Shown here in pieces: positions 4,170 to 60,664 of a DNA stretch of 64,000 nucleotides. The notes under the pieces are model-generated. The model was not told where the DNA came from and did no database searches. It was given only the letters and a program-made list of their open reading frames with translations. Position numbers and translations under genes: made by a program. How positions within the stretch are numbered: position 1 is the stretch's first letter; every line of letters begins with the position of its first letter. Source of the DNA: Microtetraspora niveoalba (GTDB taxonomy: Bacteria > Actinomycetota > Actinomycetes > Streptosporangiales > Streptosporangiaceae); contig NZ_BBYM01000016.1 in the NCBI RefSeq assembly GCF_001570405.1, positions 54,059 to 118,058 on the forward strand, written 5' to 3'.

Positions 4170-4334
4170 ACGGCCAGGGCAACCCGGCGATGCGGCCGGT
4201 CGGTGTCCTAGGCACGGGGGAGGAACATGCGCGTCACCCTAACAGCGCGACCGAAGCGCCGCCAGGCCCGGCCTTCGCCTCCTCCCCTGCCGCGGCGGGG
4301 GCGGACGAGACCGGGCACGGTGTCGAATGCGGCG

Positions 4335-51072: not shown

Positions 51073-52012
51073 TTAGCTGGCTGGGGTGAGGATAGCCGGG
51101 CCGGTTTGTGTTTGGTAGTGGGTCTCGAATTCGGCTGGTGGGAGGTCGTTGCAGGCGCTGTGGAGGCGCCGGTTGTTGTACCAGTCGACCCATTCCATAG
51201 TGGCGATCTCCAGCTCGTCCAGGCCGTTCCACGGGCCGCGGCGGTGGATCAGCTCGGTCTTGCACAACCCGATGGTGCTTTCGGCCAGGGCGTTGTCGTA
51301 GCTGTCCCCGCGTGAGCCGACCGAGCAGACCGCCCCGGCACCCGCGAGGCGCTCGGTGTAGCGAATCGACAGATAGTGGCAGCCGCGGTCGGAGTGATGC
51401 ACCAGACCATCCAGTCGCCGGCCGTCACCGCGTCGCCGGATGGCCATCTCCAGCGCGTCCAGTGCCAGGTCGGTGCGCAGGTGATCGGTCAGCCGCCACC
51501 CGACGATCATCCGCAAGAACGCGTCGATCACCAGCGCCGCGTAGACGAACCCCGACGCGGTGGGGATGTAGGTCAGGTCGGCGACCCACAGCCGGTTCGG
51601 GCGGGGGCGGTGAAGTCGCGTTTGACCAGGTCGGCGGGCCGGCCGGTGAGCGCTTCGGCGATCGTGGTCCGCGTCTTGTGGTCCCCGCGGGCCGCACCGG
51701 CCAGCCCCAGGCGCTTCATCAGCCGGGCCACCGTGCACCGCGCCACCCGGATGCCGCGCCGGTTGAGTTCCTTCCACATCTTGCGCACGCCATACACCTC
51801 GAAGTTGTCGTTCCACACCGTGGTGATCTCGGCCATGAGCTGCTGGTCCCGCACCTGGCGGGCAGACGGTGGGCGGGACTTGGCCGCGTAGTACGTCGAT
51901 GTGGCCACCTGCAACACCTGGCAGATCGGCTCGACGCCGAAAGCGTCGCGGTGGACGTCGATGAAGGCGACTACCTGGGCGGCCGTGGGTCGAGTTCCGC
52001 CGCGAAAAAAGC
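51073..52012 (-). pseudogene. IS3 OrfB transposase, broken by a one-base deletion
   Basis: The rve integrase core is clear: AFIDVHRDAFGVEPICQVLQ, then VADLTYIPTASGFVYAALVI, HHSDRGCHYLSIRYTERLAG and ALAESTIGLCKTELIHRRGP give the D, D and E of the catalytic triad. Near 51601-51606 a run of C has lost one base: the first frame ends FTAPARTGCGSPT while the next frame continues RPNRLWVADLTYIP. OrfB would normally be made by -1 slippage on six U residues (plus-strand A run 52005-52010) at the end of OrfA. As it stands the transposase is inactive. Confidence 0.85.
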
Positions 52013-52291
52013 GGCCGCGGCCTTCAGAATCTCGTTGGCGCGGCGCAGCTCGCGCACCTCGCGCTCCAGTTCGGCGATCCGCTGGGCGTCGGTGGTCGAG
52101 GTGCCCGGCCGCTGTCCCTCGTCGATCTCGGCCTGGCGCACCCACCCCCGCAGTGCCTCACGGTGAACGCCGAGCTGGTCGGCCACCCGGGCGATCGCGC
52201 CGGGAGCGCCGCCGGTCTGCCGACGGACCTCAAACACCATGCGCACCGCGCGCTCGCGAAGCTCTTGGGGGTACTTCCCCGGGGCTGGCAT
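51971..52291 (-). CDS. IS3 OrfA, HTH protein
   Basis: 106 residues from the ATG at 52291. KYPQELRERAVRMVFEVRRQ starts the HTH_Tnp_1 domain (RVADQLGVHREALRGWVRQA), followed by a leucine-zipper-like coiled coil RIAELEREVRELRRANEILK. The frame ends AAAFFAAELDPRPPR over the slippery U run used for the OrfAB fusion. It appears intact although OrfB is not. Confidence 0.88.
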   Translation of the reverse strand: MPAPGKYPQELRERAVRMVFEVRRQTGGAPGAIARVADQLGVHREALRGWVRQAEIDEGQRPGTSTTDAQRIAELEREVRELRRANEILKAAAAFFAAELDPRPPR

Positions 52292-52360
52292 CGTTTCGTC
52301 GTTCTCCCTTCCGCCAGCAGATGATGCTGGCTTCAGGGCCTCCACGAAAGTCGGAGTGGT

Positions 52361-53095
52361 TCAGACCGCCCGCAGCGCGGCGACCAGGCCGGCGTGCGCG
52401 TCGGAGATGACCAGTTGGACACCGCCCAGGCCGCGGGCTTTCAGTGAGCGCAGGAACTCGGTCCAGAACGCGCCGTCTTCGCTGTCGCCGACAGAGAAGC
52501 CGAGGATCTCCCGGTGGCCGTCAGCCGAGACGCCGGTGGCGATGACGACGGCTTGGGAGACGACCCGGTGGTTCACGCGGGCTTTGCAGTAGGTGGCGTC
52601 CAGGAACACGTATGGGAAGGTCGTGTGCGATAGCGGCCGGTCGCGGAAGGCGGCGACCTCATTGTCGAGGTCGGCGCAGATGCGGGAGACCTCGCTTTTA
52701 GAGATCCCGCTGTCGGCGCCGAGGGCTTTGACCAGGTCATCGAGGCTTCTGGTGGACACTCCTTGGAGGTAGGCCTCCATCACCACCGCGAATAGTGCTT
52801 GGTCGATGCGGCGGCGGCGTTCCAGCAGGGAGGGGAAGAACGACCCGGACCGCAGTTTGGGGATCTTCAGTTCCAGGTCTCCGGCTGCGGAGGTGAGCAG
52901 CCGGTCGCGATAGCCGTTGCGGCGCGTGGTGCGCTGTTCGGTGCGCTCATGGGGTGCGGCGCCGATCACCGCGGTCGCCTCCGCTTCGATCAGCGCCTGG
53001 AGCATGGCTTGGAGCGCTTGCCGGATGACGTCGTCGGCGTCGGCGGCTTTCAAAGACTCCAGCAACTCGAGCAGGGCAGACTGGTCCAGAGCCAT
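52361..53095 (-). pseudogene. IS256-family transposase truncated at its C-terminal half
   Basis: 244 of the usual 400 or so residues: MALDQSALLELLESLKAADA, TTRRNGYRDRLLTSAAGDLE, LQGVSTRSLDDLVKALGADS, FLDATYCKARVNHRVVSQAV (first catalytic Asp) and VISDAHAGLVAALRAV (second Asp). The frame stops 11 bases from the IS3 end, so the C-terminal part with the catalytic Glu has been lost, presumably deleted during or after IS3 insertion. The other half is not on the far side of the IS3 element. Confidence 0.9.
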
Positions 53096-53152
53096 CGTGT
53101 GATGTCCTCCGCGAGAACCTTGGCGGGAACTCGCTGACCGTCACACGATGGC
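53091..53152 (-). promoter_or_regulatory. Inverted repeat covering the IS256-type transposase start codon
   Basis: GCCATCGTGTGA (53091-53102) is perfectly complementary to TCACACGATGGC (53141-53152). In a transcript entering from outside, the stem would hide the ATG at 53095 and nearby bases, a known strategy by which IS elements block translation from read-through RNA. Confidence 0.55.
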
Positions 53153-53209
53153 TCGCCCCATGTCCGGGACTTGCTTTGTCAGCTTGGAGTTACACCACCC
53201 GAGGGGACG

Positions 53210-53860
53210 TCAACTTTGCGGCAGCAAATCGGGGTTGGCCCGGCCGTATATCTGCCGCTTGAGCATCTTGATGCGGTTGACATGACCTTCGACCTTCCCG
53301 GAGCTGTGGGCCAGGGTCAGGCCGGCTTTGGCGGCGTCGAAGTCGCGGCGCAGCCCGGTCACGAAGCAGTGCAGTTCCGGCAGGTCGTCGGCCTCAACGG
53401 CGTTCATCCACTGCTCCAGGCCGTCACCACCGAGCCGGAGCATCATGTGGGCCAAGGCGCGGACGTGATCGCGGAGCGCGGCCAGGGCCGGGCATGTCGT
53501 GGTCAAGGCCTGCAGGTGCTGTAGTTCGTCAGTGTCGAGGCTGTCGGGGTTACGGAGGAACCAGCCGGTCGCCTGGCGGACGGTGGGCGGTGCTGGCGGT
53601 AGGGCGATGGTGGTCTGCGTCCTCCAGGGGCGGAGGTACTCGCGCACTGCGTTGCCTTTGCCGCGGTAGCCCATGGCTTTGATCTCCTGGTAGAGCTGCT
53701 CGGCGTTGGTGCAGCCCTGCTCCCAGCGTTGTTGCAGGTAGCAGGCGAACTCCTCGATCGCCCTGGGGCGTTTTCCGGTGCCGGTGTTCGCGAGCAGCTC
53801 CTCCGGGCTGGTCACGTGGGCGAAGCGTCGGACGGTGTTGCGGGCCAGGTCGAGCTCGCG
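53210..53860 (-). pseudogene. ISL3-family transposase, C-terminal half
   Basis: LARNTVRRFAHVTSPEELLA, RPRAIEEFACYLQQRWEQGC, ATGWFLRNPDSLDTDELQHL and LAHSSGKVEGHVNRIKMLKR identify the C-terminal half of an actinomycete ISL3 transposase. The N-terminal half is missing beyond about 53860. The end (ANPDLLPQS) is altered by a small change next to the IS256 boundary. Confidence 0.88.
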
Positions 53861-53862
53861 GC

Positions 53863-54019
53863 CGCCGTCGCTGCCGGAGCCCGGCACGGCGCCCACGTCA
53901 CCCGCGCTGTCGCCCCCGCCACCGACCATCCCCTCCTGGCCGACCTGCGCCTGCTCGGCCTCACCGCAGTGGACGCCATCTGCTACTACCAGGCGCCCAC
54001 CAGCAGCGCACGCCAGTAG
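53863..54019 (+). pseudogene. C-terminal fragment of an unknown gene
   Basis: The plus frame AAVAAGARHGAHVTRAVAPA, then LADLRLLGLTAVDAICYYQA ends at a stop at 54019, 107 bases before the radical SAM start. It has coding character and lost its 5' part to the ISL3 element. It was probably in one operon with the radical SAM gene. Family unknown. Confidence 0.4.
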
Positions 54020-54126
54020 CCCACCGCCCGACTGCACCCGTACGCCTTCACCTGGCGGCCCCGACCGGCCCGCAGGTCCCTTCGCACCCCATGACGCAAG
54101 TCACCAGCTCGACGAAAGGATCCCCC

Positions 54127-54328
54127 GTGAAGCGCCCGCTCATCATCGACACCCACGCCAGCTCCTGCTACTTCCGCACCTCCGTCGAGGGCGACGAGCG
54201 TAAGGCCCTCGTGCAGATCACCGAACGGTGCAACCTGCACTGCGCCCACTGCTTCGTCTCCTCCGGCGACTGGGGCGACCACATGCGCCTGGAGGACCTC
54301 ACCGAGAAGGTCTTCCCCCGCCTGCGGC
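54127..54328 (+). pseudogene. Radical SAM enzyme, N-terminal 67 codons only
   Basis: GTG start at 54127 with GAAAGGA upstream. KRPLIIDTHASSCYFRTSVE, then LVQITERCNLHCAHCFVSSG holds the CxxxCxxC iron-sulfur motif (CNLHCAHC) in the context typical of peptide-modifying radical SAM/SPASM enzymes. After KVFPRLRRA the sequence switches to an integrase fragment, so more than 80 percent of the gene is gone. Confidence 0.75.
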
Positions 54329-54449
54329 GCGCCCCACCATCACGCGGGACCTGTACCAGCACGTGCGCCGTGCCGTGCAGGACGAAGCAGCTGAGAGAGT
54401 CGTGGCCCTCCTCCCCGAACGAAGGAACTCCACTGGGACAAGACCGTGA
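54329..54449 (+). pseudogene. Tyrosine integrase C-terminal fragment
   Basis: PTITRDLYQHVRRAVQDEAA, then ERVVALLPERRNSTGTRP contains the region around the catalytic Tyr (DLYQHV) and the C-terminal helix. It lies about 100 bases from the 3' end of a tRNA gene, the usual place for an int gene of an integrated element. Confidence 0.75.
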
Positions 54450-54532: not shown

Positions 54533-54551
54533 CGCGCGTTTTGCTTGGTAG

Positions 54552-54644
54552 CGGAGGCGGACGGGAATCGAACCCGCCAGGCCGAGATCCTCGGCCTCGA
54601 CGATTTTGAAGATCGCGGGGGCCACCAGGCGCCCGGACGCCTCC
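54552..54644 (-). tRNA. selC: tRNA-Sec (anticodon UCA)
   Basis: The minus-strand sequence folds as a long tRNA of 93 nt. The acceptor stem GGAGGCG pairs with CGCCTCC. The anticodon arm GCGAT-CTTCAAA-ATCGT places UCA in the anticodon. A very long variable arm pairs AGGCCGAG with CTCGGCCT around GATC, and the T arm GCGGG-TTCGATT-CCCGT follows. Length, UCA anticodon and 8-bp variable stem are specific for selenocysteine tRNA; no CCA is encoded. A selenocysteine-type formate dehydrogenase gene lies about 3 kb away. An integrase relic beside its 3' end suggests past use as an attachment site. Confidence 0.95.
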
Positions 54645-55054
54645 AGGGGAGAACGTACCGGCGGGCGGGTAACGGCCGTCACGAAGCGCGCCCATGAACG
54701 CGTCCGCTTCCGTCCAGTTCGACACCCGGCCTCCTGCCACGATGCCGGGGCGAGCGGCTTGGCTCGGCGTTCCGTGGACGGTCCCGGGCGTTCCGGCGGA
54801 ACGTGACGATGCCCTGCTCATCCCCTATGCGTAGTGCCGCCACATTCTCAGCGGCGGCCCCTCATCGTTACGGTCGCCACGCCATCAAGGCGCCGGAAAC
54901 CCCTTGTCGGTCGCGGGCATGGCCGTACCCCCGGCCGGGTTGAGATCGTGACCGTGCTCCCGCCCCGCCCGGACCGTGCTGGACAGCCGTTCCGGGAGGG
55001 GGCGGAGAGCGCCTCCCCGTCATTTCCCCAGGCAAGAGAAAGGGACCACCGGCC
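54645..55054. other. 410-base gap upstream of selC
   Basis: Should contain the tRNA promoter on the minus strand and the leader of the inhibitor-like gene on the plus strand. No gene supported. Confidence 0.5.
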
Positions 55055-55375
55055 TTGCGTACACGTCTCAGGACCGCACTCTCCGCGACCAGTCTCGGCG
55101 TCGGCGTCTGTCTCCTCGCCTTCCAGGGCACCGCCACGGCGTCCGCGTCGGCGATGCCCACAGGCAACGCCCCGTCCTGCGTCGCCGTCTGGCAGCAGAC
55201 GGGCACCATCACCAAGACCGGCTACGCCCGCAACGACTGCGGCTACTCGATGAACCTGAAGATCGTCTGGTCGCACGGCGTGGACGGGAGCTGCCAGACC
55301 GCGCGGCCCGGCGACACCGTCAAGAGCAAGGTGCCGCGCGGTCCCAGGAACTTCGACGGCGCCAACCTCTGCTGA
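55055..55375 (+). CDS. Secreted alpha-amylase inhibitor-like protein (tendamistat family, atypical)
   Basis: 106 residues from a TTG at 55055 (AAGGGA upstream). A signal peptide (LRTALSATSLGVGVCLLAFQ, GTATASA) precedes a mature part of about 74 residues with four cysteines: APSCVAVWQQTGTITKTGYA, RNDCGYSMNLKIVWSHGVDG, SCQTARPGDTV..., ending GANLC. Size, two disulfide pairs and the P-S-C-V opening match Streptomyces alpha-amylase inhibitors such as tendamistat. The inhibitory W-R-Y triplet is absent from the expected place (QQTGTITK), so the target may differ. Fold assignment is by eye. Confidence 0.65.
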   Translation: MRTRLRTALSATSLGVGVCLLAFQGTATASASAMPTGNAPSCVAVWQQTGTITKTGYARNDCGYSMNLKIVWSHGVDGSCQTARPGDTVKSKVPRGPRNFDGANLC

Positions 55376-55448
55376 CCGCACCGTCCCGTGTGTCCGGACG
55401 CGGCCGCACCGTCGCCGACCCCGCTGCCCGGCTCGGGACCGTCCGAAC

Positions 55449-56399
55449 TCACCGACCGGGTACGGAGGCCGGCTCGGCCGCGGCGAGGCGTTCCCGCTGC
55501 GGCACCACCGTGTATTCGGGGTCGGCGGCGGAGGCGCGCCCCGCCTCCAGGACCCCGAACCGGGTGCACAGCGCCCCGGCGGTGAGGGCGAGACCGGACG
55601 CCGCGGTGGCGGCGCGGCCGCGCCCGGCGAGCAGCGCGAGCAGGCCGCCGGCGGCGGTCAACGCGCGGGCCGCGCCCAGCAGGCGTCCCGCCCTGCCCCG
55701 CCGGTACGGCTCGCCGACGAGGCCGAGCCGCCGTTCCAGGATCGTGGCGGCGGCGGTCTCGACGGCGGCCCCGAGCACCGCGACGGCGCGGGCGGGACCG
55801 GCCTCGGCGCGGGGCGTGGCGAGCATCGCGGCCGCTCCGGCGCTCGCCAGCGCGCTCCCGGCGAACAGGAACGGCAGCTCCCGGTAGCCCGCGTGCCAGG
55901 CCGGCACGGCGGTGTCGGCGACCAGCACGGCCGTGTACGTCGCGGTCAGCGGGCCGGTCACCGCGGTCGCCAGCGCGGCGGCGTCGCCGACGGCGGGCAG
56001 GATCCCGGTCACGTCGGACGCGGCGGCCGCCGCCGACAGGCCGCCCTGGGCGGCGAGGATCCAGGACCCGACGCTCATCGGGGACGAGGGTTTGAACACG
56101 CGGAGCATGTTCAGGAACCGGGCGGGCCGGCCCAGCTCGGCGATCAGGAACACGGACCCGGCGGCCGCGCCGGCCGCGGCGGTGATCCGGGCGGTGCGGG
56201 CCAGGCGCGGCCGTCCGGTGGCCGTGGCGAGGACGGCGGTGAGCGAGGAGGCCCCGGACAGCCCGCCCAGGTACAGGTAGGCCGGCATGTGCGGCACGTG
56301 CCAGATCGGCTGTTTGATCACCGGCCGCCCGTAGTACGACCGGAAGTCCGCCTCTGGGGTCGTCTCGGGTGTGGCCCGCTCGCGCGTGCTTCTGGTCAT
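55449..56399 (-). CDS. nrfD: NrfD/PsrC-like membrane anchor subunit of formate dehydrogenase
   Basis: 316 residues from the ATG at 56399 (GAGAGG 6 bases upstream). It opens MTRSTRERATPETTPEADFR, then SYYGRPVIKQPIWHVPHMPA, YLYLGGLSGASSLTAVLATA, the characteristic NrfD start in which the first helix follows PxWxxxxxxYxFLGGLAG. Eight to nine hydrophobic segments follow, including RFLNMLRVFKPSSPMSVGSW, conserved in actinobacterial FDH-linked NrfD. It would pass electrons from the Fe-S subunit to menaquinone. It is the third gene of the fdh operon, after a 220-base G/C-repeat gap. Confidence 0.9.
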   Translation of the reverse strand: MTRSTRERATPETTPEADFRSYYGRPVIKQPIWHVPHMPAYLYLGGLSGASSLTAVLATATGRPRLARTARITAAAGAAAGSVFLIAELGRPARFLNMLRVFKPSSPMSVGSWILAAQGGLSAAAAASDVTGILPAVGDAAALATAVTGPLTATYTAVLVADTAVPAWHAGYRELPFLFAGSALASAGAAAMLATPRAEAGPARAVAVLGAAVETAAATILERRLGLVGEPYRRGRAGRLLGAARALTAAGGLLALLAGRGRAATAASGLALTAGALCTRFGVLEAGRASAADPEYTVVPQRERLAAAEPASVPGR

Positions 56400-56619
56400 C
56401 GGCGCCTCTCTCGCGACCGCGTCATAGGAACCGGAACCCCCCGGGAACCAGGACGACCCCGAAGGCCGGGGCAACCTCGGAAACCAGGGTGGCCCTGGAA
56501 GCCAGGGCGCCCCCGAGGACCGGGGCGACCGGGGGAAGCCGGGAACGCGCGGGAACCGGGGGAACCGGGGGAACCGGGGGAAGCCGGGAACGCGGGGAAA
56601 CGCCCCCGCACGGTCCGGC
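56400..56619 (-). repeat. G/C-rich short tandem repeats between fdhB and nrfD
   Basis: At 56551-56583 the plus strand repeats GGGAACCGG with G-runs of 3 to 5 separated by AACC, enough for a four-tract G-quadruplex. Related units extend across most of the gap. On the transcript it is C-rich. Confidence 0.75.
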
Positions 56620-57480
56620 TCACCGCAGCCTCCAGGGGCGCGCGGCTCCGCCGGGGCGGCCGGACGCCGCGAGGAACGACAGGGCCACGGCGCCCGCCAT
56701 CGTGAGCGCGGCCGCCCCGGCCCACCGCCACATCGCGGGCAGGTCGCGCGTCGGCACCACGGGGTCGGGCGGCAGGCCGTACACCTCGGGCTCGTCGAGG
56801 AGCAGGAAGAACGCGCCCATGCCGCCCACGCCGTCGTCGGGGCTCTCGCCGTACAGGCGGGCCTCGGTACGGCCGGCGGCGTGCAGGGTGGCCACGCGGG
56901 CGGCCGCCCGCTCACGCAGCTCGTCGAGCGGGCCGAACTGGATCGAGTCGGTCGGGCACGCCTTGGCGCAGGCGGGTTCGAGGCCACCGCGCAGCCGGTC
57001 GTAGCACATGGTGCACTTCCAGGCCCGGCCGTCGCCCTCCCTGCGGTCGATCACGCCGAACGGGCAGGCGGGCACGCAGTATCCGCAGCCGTTGCAGATG
57101 TCGGCCTGCACGACCACGGTGTCGAACTCGGTGCGGAACAGCGCGCCGGTCGGGCAGACGTCGAGGCAGCCGGCGTGCGTGCAGTGCTTGCACACGTCCG
57201 ACGACATCAGCCAGCGTCCGTCCGGGCCGATCCCGAACGGGTCGCCGGTCTCGGCGCCCCGTTCCCCGGCTCCGCCGTCGGGCGTCCAGACCGGCTGCTG
57301 CTCGATGAAGGCGACGTGCCGCCAGGTGCTCGCCCCGAGCGCGCCGGTGTTGTCGTAGGAGGTCGCCTGGAACACGAACCCGTCGTCGGGGACGCGGTTC
57401 CACTCCTTGCAGGCCACCTCGCACGCCTTGCAGCCGATGCAGATGCTCGTGTCGGTGAAGAAGCCCATCCGCTCAGCCAT
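56620..57480 (-). CDS. fdhB: Formate dehydrogenase Fe-S subunit (4x[4Fe-4S], membrane tail)
   Basis: 286 residues. Its start overlaps the fdhA stop by 8 bases. Four cysteine groups are complete: CIGCKACEVACKEW, CKHCTHAGCLDVCPTG, CNGCGYCVPACPFGVID and CTMCYDRL...CAKACPTD, giving four [4Fe-4S] clusters as in FdnH/FdoH. A C-terminal hydrophobic helix (WAGAAALTMAGAVALSFLAA) anchors it. It carries electrons from the molybdenum or tungsten site in FdhA to the NrfD subunit and the quinone pool. Confidence 0.95.
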   Translation of the reverse strand: MAERMGFFTDTSICIGCKACEVACKEWNRVPDDGFVFQATSYDNTGALGASTWRHVAFIEQQPVWTPDGGAGERGAETGDPFGIGPDGRWLMSSDVCKHCTHAGCLDVCPTGALFRTEFDTVVVQADICNGCGYCVPACPFGVIDRREGDGRAWKCTMCYDRLRGGLEPACAKACPTDSIQFGPLDELRERAAARVATLHAAGRTEARLYGESPDDGVGGMGAFFLLLDEPEVYGLPPDPVVPTRDLPAMWRWAGAAALTMAGAVALSFLAASGRPGGAARPWRLR

Positions 57481-60400
57481 GCCGGTACTCCTCGATCAGG
57501 CGGAGCAGGTCCGCTCCCCTCGGCCGGCGGCCGGGCCGCACGTCGCAGGTGGTCGCCTTGCTCTCCTGGATGAAGACGTTCGGGTCGAGCACGATCGGCA
57601 TGAGGTCGTTGGCGATGTCGCCGGTGACCAGGCCGCCGCTCCCCCAGCCCCAGTGGTACGGCAGGCCGATCTGGTGGACGGTCCGCCCCTGGATGCGCAG
57701 CGGCCGCACGCGTTCGGTGACCAGCACCCGGGCCTCGATCGCGGTCCTGCTGGTCACGATCGTGGCCCAGGCGCCGTTCGCCAGGCCCAGCTCGGCGGCG
57801 AGCGACGGCGACATCTCGCAGAACAGCTCCGGCTGCAGCTCGGCCAGATAGGCCAGGGGCCGGCTCATGCCGCCCGCCGTGTGGTGCTCGGTCAGCCGGT
57901 ACGTCGTGAGCACGTACGGGAAGCGGGGCGAGAGCTCGGGGTTGTACGGCGACTCGGGGCGCGGGTAGGTGTGCGCGCACGGGTTGGACTGGACGCCGTA
58001 CAGGCTGTTGCGCACCGGCGACTCGTAGGGCTCGTAGTGCGCGGGCAGCGGCCCGTCGGCCAGGCCGGCCGGGGCGAAGAGCCAGCCCTTCCCGTCCGCC
58101 TGCATGATGAACGGGTCGGTCCCGGACAGCGCGTCCTCGGCCAGGGCTCCCGCGGGCGGCCGGTAGCCGGGGGGCTTGCCCTTCTCGAAGTCGGGCACGT
58201 CCGGCCCGGTCCACTCGCCCCGCTCGCCGTCCCAGACGATGTACGCCTTGCGCTCGCTCCAGGGGCGGCCCTCGGGGTCGGCGGAGGCGCGGTTGTAGAG
58301 GATGCGCCGGTTGGCCGGCCAGGCCCAGCCCCATTCGAGGGCCTCGGGGTTCTGCTCGCGTCCGGGCCTGCGCCTGGCCGCCTGGTTGACCTCGTCGGCG
58401 TAGACACCGCAGTAGATCCAGCAGCCGCAGCGGGTGGAGCCGTCCGGCCGCAGCTCGGTGTACGCGCTGAGGGCCCGGCCGTCGGGCCCGATCCCGCCGA
58501 TCTCCCGCAACACGGCGGCGGCCGACGGGTCGCGGTGCTCGCCCTCCTCGGGATAGTCCCAGGTGAGCTCGCGCAGCGGCCGGTCGACCTCGCCGGAGGA
58601 CGCGCGCTGCCTGAGCAGCCGGCCGAGGTGGTAGTAGAACCACAGGTCGCTTCGGCAGTCGCCGGGCGGGTCGAGGGCCTTCTCCCGCCACTGGAGCAGC
58701 CGCTGGGTGTTGGTGAAGGTGCCCTCCTTCTCCACATGGCTGGCGGCGGGCAGGAAGAACACCTCGGTGCCGATGTCCTCGGTGCGCATCTCCCCGGTCT
58801 CCAGCTCGGGGCCGTCCTTCCAGAAGGTCGCCGTCTCCACCAGGGTCAGGTCGCGTACGACGAGCCAGTCGAGGTTGGCCAGGCCGAACCGCTGCGCGCG
58901 CCCGCCCGAGGAGCCGACGGCGGGGTTCTCCCCCACCACGAAGTAGCCCTTGACCGTGCCGTCGATCATGCCCATGACGGTCGTGTAGTGGCCGTGGTCG
59001 CCGGTGAGGCGCGGTAGGTTGTCGAAGCGGAAGTCGTTCGCCTCGGTCGCCGCGTCGCCCCACCACGCCTTGAGCAGGCTCACCATGTAGGCGCGCTTCC
59101 TGCCCCAGAACCCGGTGTCCCCTCCCGCCCGCGTCAGGTAGTCGTCCAGGTTCTCGTCGATGTGCGCGTACGGCATCGGCAGGTATCCCGGCAGGATGTT
59201 GAACAGCGTCGGGATGTCGGTCGAGCCCTGGATGCTCGCGTGGCCGCGCAGGGCGAGGATGCCGCCGCCCGGCCGCCCGATGTTCCCGAGCAGGAGCTGC
59301 AGGATGGACGCCGTCCTGATGTACTGCACGCCCACGGTGTGCTGGGTCCAGCCGACCGAGTACACCCAGGCGGTGGTGCGCTCCCTGCCGGAGTTCGCCG
59401 TGATCGCGTCGGCCAGCTCGGCGAAGTCGGCCCGGGACACGCCGCACAGCTCCTCGACCGTCTCGGGCGTGTAGCGGGCGAAGTGCCGTTTGAGGATCTG
59501 GTACACGCAGCGCGGATGGTTCAGGGTCGGGTCCGTCTTCGGCCGCGGGTGCGCGGCCGCGCCGCCGGCGCCGTACTGGTCGGGGCCGGCGGCGCGGGCG
59601 TGCGGCCGGCCTCCTTCGAGCTGCTCGGCGCGCAGCCCGGCCGCGGGCTCCTCCCCCGCCCCCTCGTACGACCAGGTCGACGGGTCGTACGCGCGGGTCT
59701 CGTGGTCGAAGCCGGAGAACAGGCCGTCGAGGTCCTCGGTGTCGCGGTAGTCCTCGGACACGATCATCGGCGCGTTCGTGTAGGCCAGCACGTACTCGCG
59801 GAAGTCCAGCCCGTTCGACAGGACGTGGTTGATCAGCGCGCCGAGCAGCACGATGTCGCTGCCCGCGCGGATGTTCAGGTACCGGTCGGCGAGCGCGCTG
59901 GTCCGTGTGTAGCGCGGGTCCACGTGGAACACCTTCGCCCCCCGGGCCTTGGCCTCGACCACCCACTGGAAGCCCACGGGGTGGCATTCGGCCATGTTGG
60001 AGCCCTGGATGACGATGCAGTCGGCGCGCTCCAGGTCCTGCTGGAACGTGGTGGCGCCGCCGCGCCCGAAGCTGGCCCCCAGACCGGGGACGGTGGAGGA
60101 GTGTCAAATACGGGCCTGGTTCTCCACCTGGACGGCGCCGAGGGCGGTGTACAGCTTCTTCATCAGGTAGTTCTCTTCGTTGTCGAGCGTCGCCCCGCCC
60201 AGGCCGGCGATGCCCAGGGTGCGGCGCACGACCTTGCCCTCGTACTCCTGCTGCCAGGTGTCCCGCCGAGTCCGCGCGACCCGGTCGGCGATCATGTCCA
60301 TCGCGGTGCCGAGATCGAGCGGCTCCCACTCGGTGCCGTACGGTCGGCGGTAGAGCACGGTCGTCTGACGGCCGGCGTGGGTGACGAGCTGCTTGCTGGC

Positions 60401-60664
60401 CGAGCCCTTCGGGCACAGCCGGCCCCGCGAGATCGGCGAGTCGGGGTCGCCCTCGATCTGGGTGACCGCGCCGTCCTTGACGTAGACGAGCTGGCCGCAG
60501 CCGACCGCGCAGTAGGGGCAGACCGACCGGGCGACGCTGTCCGCCTCCTCGACCCGGGGCCGCAGCGCGTCGGTGCGCGCCGACCGCGCGGCCGCGCCCC
60601 TGCCGTCCTGTCCCCGGAGCTGCCGGATCACCGGCCACCGGGCGAGCCATCCCCCACCTGCCAT
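57473..60664 (-). CDS. fdhA: Selenocysteine-containing formate dehydrogenase catalytic subunit
   Basis: 1063 residues when the in-frame TGA at 60104-60106 is read as selenocysteine (residue 187). Before it the protein reads SVCPYCAVGCGQLVYVKDGA, with the proximal [4Fe-4S] ligands, LCPKGSASKQ, and VENQARI; after it HSSTVPGLGASFGRG, exactly the FDH active-site context NQARI-[U/C]-HSxTV. The rest is the molybdopterin guanine dinucleotide fold (VFHVDPRYTRTSALADRYLN; GRPGGGILALRGHASIQGST; C-terminal MGD cap with VLTTYRLTEHHTAGGMSRPL). A bSECIS-like hairpin starts right after the UGA. The operon order is fdhA-fdhB-nrfD. No twin-Arg motif is evident at the N-terminus, so membrane side is unclear. 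Confidence 0.95.
60077..60106 (-). promoter_or_regulatory. Sec UGA codon and bSECIS-like hairpin in fdhA
   Basis: On the coding strand the TGA (60104-60106) is followed 14 bases later by CCCC-GGTCT-GGGG (60089 down to 60077). The apical GGUCU loop about 19 nt from the UGA matches the bacterial SECIS of fdhF, where SelB binds the GGU-bearing loop. Confidence 0.8.

Follow-up and report, generated by a model that had tools for sequence, protein, structure and literature searches.

The 64,000-nucleotide (nt) stretch of Microtetraspora niveoalba DNA analysed here (the window; positions 54059-118058 of contig NZ_BBYM01000016.1, C16) raises the question of whether an actinomycete can read UGA as selenocysteine (Sec) when selC, the gene for tRNA-Sec, is the only decoding gene found beside the formate dehydrogenase gene, fdhA, that carries the codon. 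The genome comprises 8.47 Mb in 98 contigs and is an estimated 99.9% complete. A sequence-only reading of the window had predicted that selA, selB and selD lie elsewhere in the genome and had made the trait depend on them; all three were found, on contigs C2 and C52, above curated cut-offs, and the trait stands unrefuted. Every predicted part of the decoding apparatus is present, and the UGA falls at the Sec position of solved enzymes. At a probability of about 0.92, fdhABC encodes a membrane-bound, quinone-linked formate dehydrogenase with Sec at residue 187, produced through a chimeric sel machinery. The sequence-only reading proved correct wherever it could be checked. The cysteine (Cys) paralogue of FdhA, the loss of selD beside selC and the foreign sel cluster described below lay beyond the view of the sequence-only reading.

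The genes fdhA, fdhB, fdhC and then selC form one minus-strand stretch, with fdhABC as an operon. fdhA (57473-60664, minus strand) encodes a catalytic subunit of 1063 residues, its UGA predicted to be read as Sec, that matches the formate dehydrogenase family NF041513 with 1921.8 bits (cut-off 1400). Its frame (57476-60664) contains exactly one TGA, which is codon 187 (60104-60106, minus strand), in the context QARI-U-HSSTV, as proposed earlier; in an alignment this residue falls on the Sec ("X") of PDB entry 1H0H, a formate dehydrogenase. The TGA is kept at the same place in 52 related family genes, and protein identity to the sister genomes stays at 90% downstream of it. fdhB (56620-57480, minus strand) encodes an iron-sulfur subunit with 4Fe-4S domains (TIGR01582, 171 bits, below its cut-off), and fdhC (55449-56402, minus strand) an NrfD-type membrane subunit (PF03916, 49.7 bits). 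Catalytic subunit, Sec position and surrounding motif are as in E. coli formate dehydrogenase N (1KQF) and the tungsten formate dehydrogenase of D. gigas (1H0H); M. niveoalba differs in having a membrane subunit of NrfD type and, near residues 335-373, a variable insert. Between fdhB and fdhC, a tandem GC-rich unit of 9 bp occurs in about 8 copies (56519-56603).

By its profile match, M. niveoalba fdhA is a member of a named actinobacterial family, a kind already known in relatives. Within a sample of 150 Streptosporangiaceae genomes, TGA-containing fdhA occurs in 63 and selA in 92; selA is present in 59 of the 63 (Fisher p = 4e-13), and the four lacking it are all fragmented drafts. Conversely, 33 of the 92 selA genomes lack a TGA-fdhA. 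Selenoprotein use is patchy in actinobacteria, as the sequence-only reading had held, yet common in this family. A Cys paralogue in M. niveoalba (C44:13519-16716, QARVCHSSTV) is 66% identical to FdhA; full-length Sec and Cys forms occur together in 3 of the 150 genomes. The trait has been described in Streptomyces incarnatus NRRL8089, which has FDH-O and selABCD (PMC4498112). Both organisms have a UGA-containing fdhA with a selenocysteine insertion sequence (SECIS) downstream and selA, selB, selC and selD in the genome. In S. incarnatus, however, selABCD is clustered near fdhA, whereas in M. niveoalba selC alone is beside it, the remaining sel genes are of a foreign type on other contigs, and the Cys paralogue is also present.

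The signal that would distinguish this UGA from a stop is a hairpin at 60075-60091 (minus strand). Comparison of the 52 TGA-fdhA genes with 14 Cys (TGC) homologues of the same family, counting nt from the U of the UGA, defines a helix of 6 bp (pairs 16-32 to 21-27) closed by the loop RGUCU at nt 22-26. The stem-loop CCCC-GGUCU-GGGG, recognised already from the window alone, is borne out: all pairs are kept in 51 of the 52 Sec genes, with compensatory changes in two genes (C18-G30 to U-A) and in one (G16-C32 to A-U). The Cys homologues do not keep the hairpin sequence. Over the 11 codons following the UGA, mean synonymous codon entropy is 0.26 bit in Sec genes vs. 0.87 bit in Cys genes, and 0.66 bit in the flanks of the Sec genes. 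These comparisons indicate selection on the hairpin in the Sec genes only. On its own, the 20-nt hairpin has a folding energy of -10.8 kcal/mol, and its pattern occurs exactly once in the M. niveoalba genome, in fdhA. The E. coli fdhF SECIS, taken as reference, has the same distance from the UGA and the same G23-U24 in a GGUC(U) loop; the M. niveoalba element has a GC-rich helix of 6 bp and a 5-nt loop. The codon preceding the UGA (60107-60109) ends in T or A (ATT, ATA or GTT) in 52 of 52 Sec genes, which is conspicuous for Ile and Val codons given the GC-rich codon use; the Cys genes have GTC, GTG or CTG. A 5' context effect on decoding is possible.

A second gene points to the same element. 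Amycolatopsis acidicola, whose fdhA bears this hairpin, also encodes a UGSC-family selenoprotein (L160:4041-4577, plus strand; PF24696, 165 bits against 25) with an in-frame TGA at 4332. The gene is unrelated to fdhA and adjoins a selA/selB/selD cluster and a set of three further genes (the trio, see below). After its UGA a hairpin with the loop AGUCU takes the same place as in fdhA. Its 19-nt and 23-nt forms give z scores of -3.5 and -4.0, although the folding program closes the loop by two more bases. Because position and loop recur in an unrelated gene, the element gains independent support.

selC (54551-54644, minus strand) is called by ARAGORN as tRNA-Sec(tca), matches Rfam RF01852 with 71.7 bits (cut-off 47), folds with a variable arm of 8 bp and a 3-nt loop (z = -3.0) and lies at the same place in the sister genomes. 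ARAGORN, profile and fold agree with the tRNA-Sec with UCA anticodon and 8-bp variable arm proposed beforehand, at coordinates that were correct to within one base. This is the only match in the genome at the strength of the sister selC genes; the next best, on C10, reaches 48.4 bits, and weak matches of this kind are common in many genomes. SelA and SelD are encoded on C2 (TIGR00474, 377.9 bits, cut-off 267.9; TIGR00476, 371.5 bits, cut-off 125) and SelB on C52 (TIGR00475, 269.2 bits, cut-off 242.25). The active-site motif of SelD, GGGCACK, contains Cys in place of Sec, and SelB possesses SelB-wing_3 and a winged-helix C-terminus. selA and selB are both on the minus strand, selB beginning near the end of C52.

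These three genes are not the ones that relatives carry. Between selC and a small open reading frame adjoining fdhC, the sister genomes (G118 and G096) and a close relative (G038) all carry selD. In M. niveoalba this frame (55055-55375, plus strand; weak alpha-amylase-inhibitor profile match) also adjoins fdhC, and the interval to selC (54645-55054) is a 411-nt gap without selD, compared with 1625 nt in G118. In G118 and G038, selA-selB is flanked by the genes for CcdA and for a zinc alcohol dehydrogenase; in M. niveoalba these two genes are 267 nt apart, without selAB, just left of the window on C16. No remnants of native sel genes were found at the two vacated sites, the best match to selD between fdhC and selC having E = 0.05. 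In the trees of SelA, SelB and SelD, the M. niveoalba protein falls each time with Streptomyces hyderabadensis (L143) and A. acidicola (L145) and not with its genus (support 96/93, 100/100 and 99/96, respectively). The loci of these two species share the order selD-three genes-selA-selB, followed by a selC. On C52 no selC follows selB, so the newly acquired genes have to rely on the selC already present. By gene content and trees, the system is chimeric: it combines an fdhA and a selC native to the genus with selD, selA and selB from a foreign cluster, the native copies of these three being lost. The Sec trait was reported earlier to have passed horizontally between actinobacteria (PMC5029168); here, a resident set is exchanged.

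A divergent second type of selD-selA-selB-selC cluster was seen in other genomes (G033:C1:117033-123547, G100:C1:2352176-2356577 and G020:C638; loci L126, L140 and L141). A conserved block of unknown genes lies behind it, and several genomes contain both types.

Several observations weigh against Sec decoding in M. niveoalba. The region of 57 nt after the UGA is not unusually stable against shuffles (z = +0.63). Because the regional energy gave no signal, the hairpin was judged on comparative evidence, by which it is real. U17 is invariant in 52 of 52 Sec genes; it stands opposite A or G31 and so can pair, whereas in the E. coli fdhF element it is bulged. selA is cut by the start of C2, leaving about 84 C-terminal residues unseen, and its adjacency to selB spans a contig break, C2 then C52 probably reading selD, three genes, selA, gap, selB. 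Were the UGA a true stop, fdhA would be broken, or the codon would be a sequencing error for TGC (Cys); the functional Cys paralogue in the same genome would make a loss tolerable. Yet the same TGA stands in 52 independent genes of the family, identity past it is undiminished and the codons that follow are constrained in the Sec genes only, which renders this explanation very improbable.

Only slightly more credible is the view that selD-selA-selB on C2 and C52 serve another selenoprotein, the foreign SelB no longer decoding a native fdhA that is nearing loss. SelB is indeed only 51-53% identical to that of the sister genomes, and the related S. hyderabadensis cluster resides in a genome without a close FdhA. 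However, in A. acidicola a SelB of this type coexists with an fdhA that has the same hairpin, so that the incoming SelB should read it and compatibility is plausible. Moreover, no further gene with this hairpin exists in the M. niveoalba genome, and its fdhA is without signs of decay. Read-through scans covering the neighbourhoods of the sel genes revealed no second selenoprotein there. In the reading preferred here, that of a chimeric machinery serving FdhA, SelD would synthesize selenophosphate and SelA would convert Ser-tRNA-Sec, made on the selC product encoded beside fdhA, into Sec-tRNA-Sec. SelB, bound to the GGUCU-loop hairpin 12 nt downstream, would then bring this tRNA to the UGA. Selenium would be inserted into FdhA, and formate oxidation would feed respiration.

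The foreign cluster carries three genes, the trio, between selD and selA (C2:1134-4297, outside the window), whose order is kept in most of the 80 closest loci. The first encodes an acyl-CoA-dehydrogenase-like flavoprotein. The second encodes a cytosolic protein resembling PhnD-type binding proteins, with no apparent signal peptide on reading the sequence; its AlphaFold model (predicted local distance difference test, pLDDT, 91) matches PtxB, PhnD and ArrX, which bind phosphite, phosphonate and arsenate, respectively. The putative selenate ABC-transporter binding protein TIGR04553 and the Rv1679/Rv1680 families (NF049984/NF049985) are related in sequence and share this PhnD/PtxB-type oxyanion-binding fold. 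The M. niveoalba proteins nevertheless score far below the respective cut-offs (52.5 of 250, 369 of 600 and 232 of 400 bits), and the trio has neither transporter partners nor an apparent signal peptide. In-frame stops in some distant binding-protein homologues are probably real C-terminal stops inside extended alignments. The third gene encodes a fusion of TusA with a diiron protein. Its C-terminal part has the diiron-oxygenase fold: the model (pLDDT 87) matches VlmB (Z 19.9, 3.8 A over 255 residues) and aldehyde-deformylating oxygenase (Z 19.2, 2.5 A over 214 residues), and the expected ligands E172, E204, H207, E254, E284 and H287 show conservation of 97% or more across 82 homologues. The N-terminal part is TusA-like: 42 of 43 members have a Pfam TusA match with E no higher than 1 (3.5e-7 at best), and a PDB TusA matches at E = 0.045. 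TusA usually has a catalytic Cys, which, on reading the sequence, this part seems to lack.

Whether the trio belongs to selenium metabolism or consists of passengers without a role in it was judged from its surroundings. Around the 80 loci, selenium genes rank top: SelD is the commonest neighbour (21 loci), followed by SelA (15) and SelB (14). Next come an ABC-transporter ATPase (12), an SDR family (11), FdhB, FdhC and SenA (9 each), and FdhA and SenB, along with other families, at 7 each. Both senA and senB, the proteins scoring above curated cut-offs, stand beside the trio in three genomes and senA in a fourth. On the other side, sel and sen genes are absent from the surrounding 10 kb at 59 of the 80 loci, as might be expected of passengers. 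Even so, selD is present in 40 of the 42 trio genomes without a selenium neighbour in that range (the two exceptions are both Saccharothrix), compared with 9 of 29 same-class genomes readable from the phylum sample (Fisher p = 7e-9), an incomplete baseline in which some unmatched genomes are not listed, neither set being phylogenetically independent. Within the family, selA occurs in 14 of 14 trio genomes vs. 92 of 150 overall (p = 0.0007). At phylum level, with distant trio relatives included, selD is not significantly enriched (9/12 vs. 188/296). This favours the passenger view, although the inclusion of distant Rv1680-type proteins and the presence of selD in most sampled lineages anyway account for it. 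Distant relatives also occur as Rv1679/Rv1680 in Mycobacterium tuberculosis, which is not known to have a Sec system. Taken with the neighbours and the selD and selA counts, a passenger trio seems rather unlikely. S. hyderabadensis (L143) and S. tibetensis (L175) have full sel sets, selC and the trio, with no FdhA match at E 1e-100.

The M. niveoalba cluster recalls the selenoneine cluster, senA/senB with SelD/SenC (NF041186, TIGR04348), in having the trio as neighbour and in its need for selenophosphate; the selenoneine cluster makes a small molecule, not a selenoprotein, and no senA/senB adjoins the M. niveoalba cluster. Since Sec genes and selenoneine genes alike have the trio beside them, it is most simply read as a module that provides SelD with selenium. 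The odds are about even that the trio is a selenium-supply module of Actinomycetota, serving salvage or activation and not described before, that feeds SelD for the synthesis of selenocysteine or selenoneine. What was tested is its link to SelD; the chemistry, for example oxidative release of selenium from an organic or oxyanion source, is a guess. The reviews and candidate-gene papers searched, a partial coverage of the literature, make no mention of a role for the trio in selenium metabolism.

Left of selC, transposase genes and remnants of IS3, Mutator and ISL3 type extend over 51073-54037 (minus strand); the IS3-type element contains an ALIL pseudoknot (51902-52013, minus strand; RF01497, 54.5 bits), a programmed frameshift signal. 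A short radical-SAM-like piece with a CNLHCAHC motif (54091-54350, plus strand) is ended by a frame break. An island integrated at selC would be expected to come with a second copy of the selC 3' end; a search of the rest of the window, allowing up to 3 mismatches, found none.

The presence of a complete Sec-decoding gene set in the M. niveoalba genome is settled. The Sec trait itself is ordinary for the family; the exchanged machinery and, above all, the selenium-linked trio are the parts worth following. The genome shows that decoding machinery is exchangeable wholesale while selenoprotein gene, SECIS and tRNA remain. A 2022 review states that a high-affinity transport system for selenium has yet to be identified (PMC9312934). 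Should the trio indeed supply selenium, it would be relevant to the way in which aerobic actinomycetes acquire the element.

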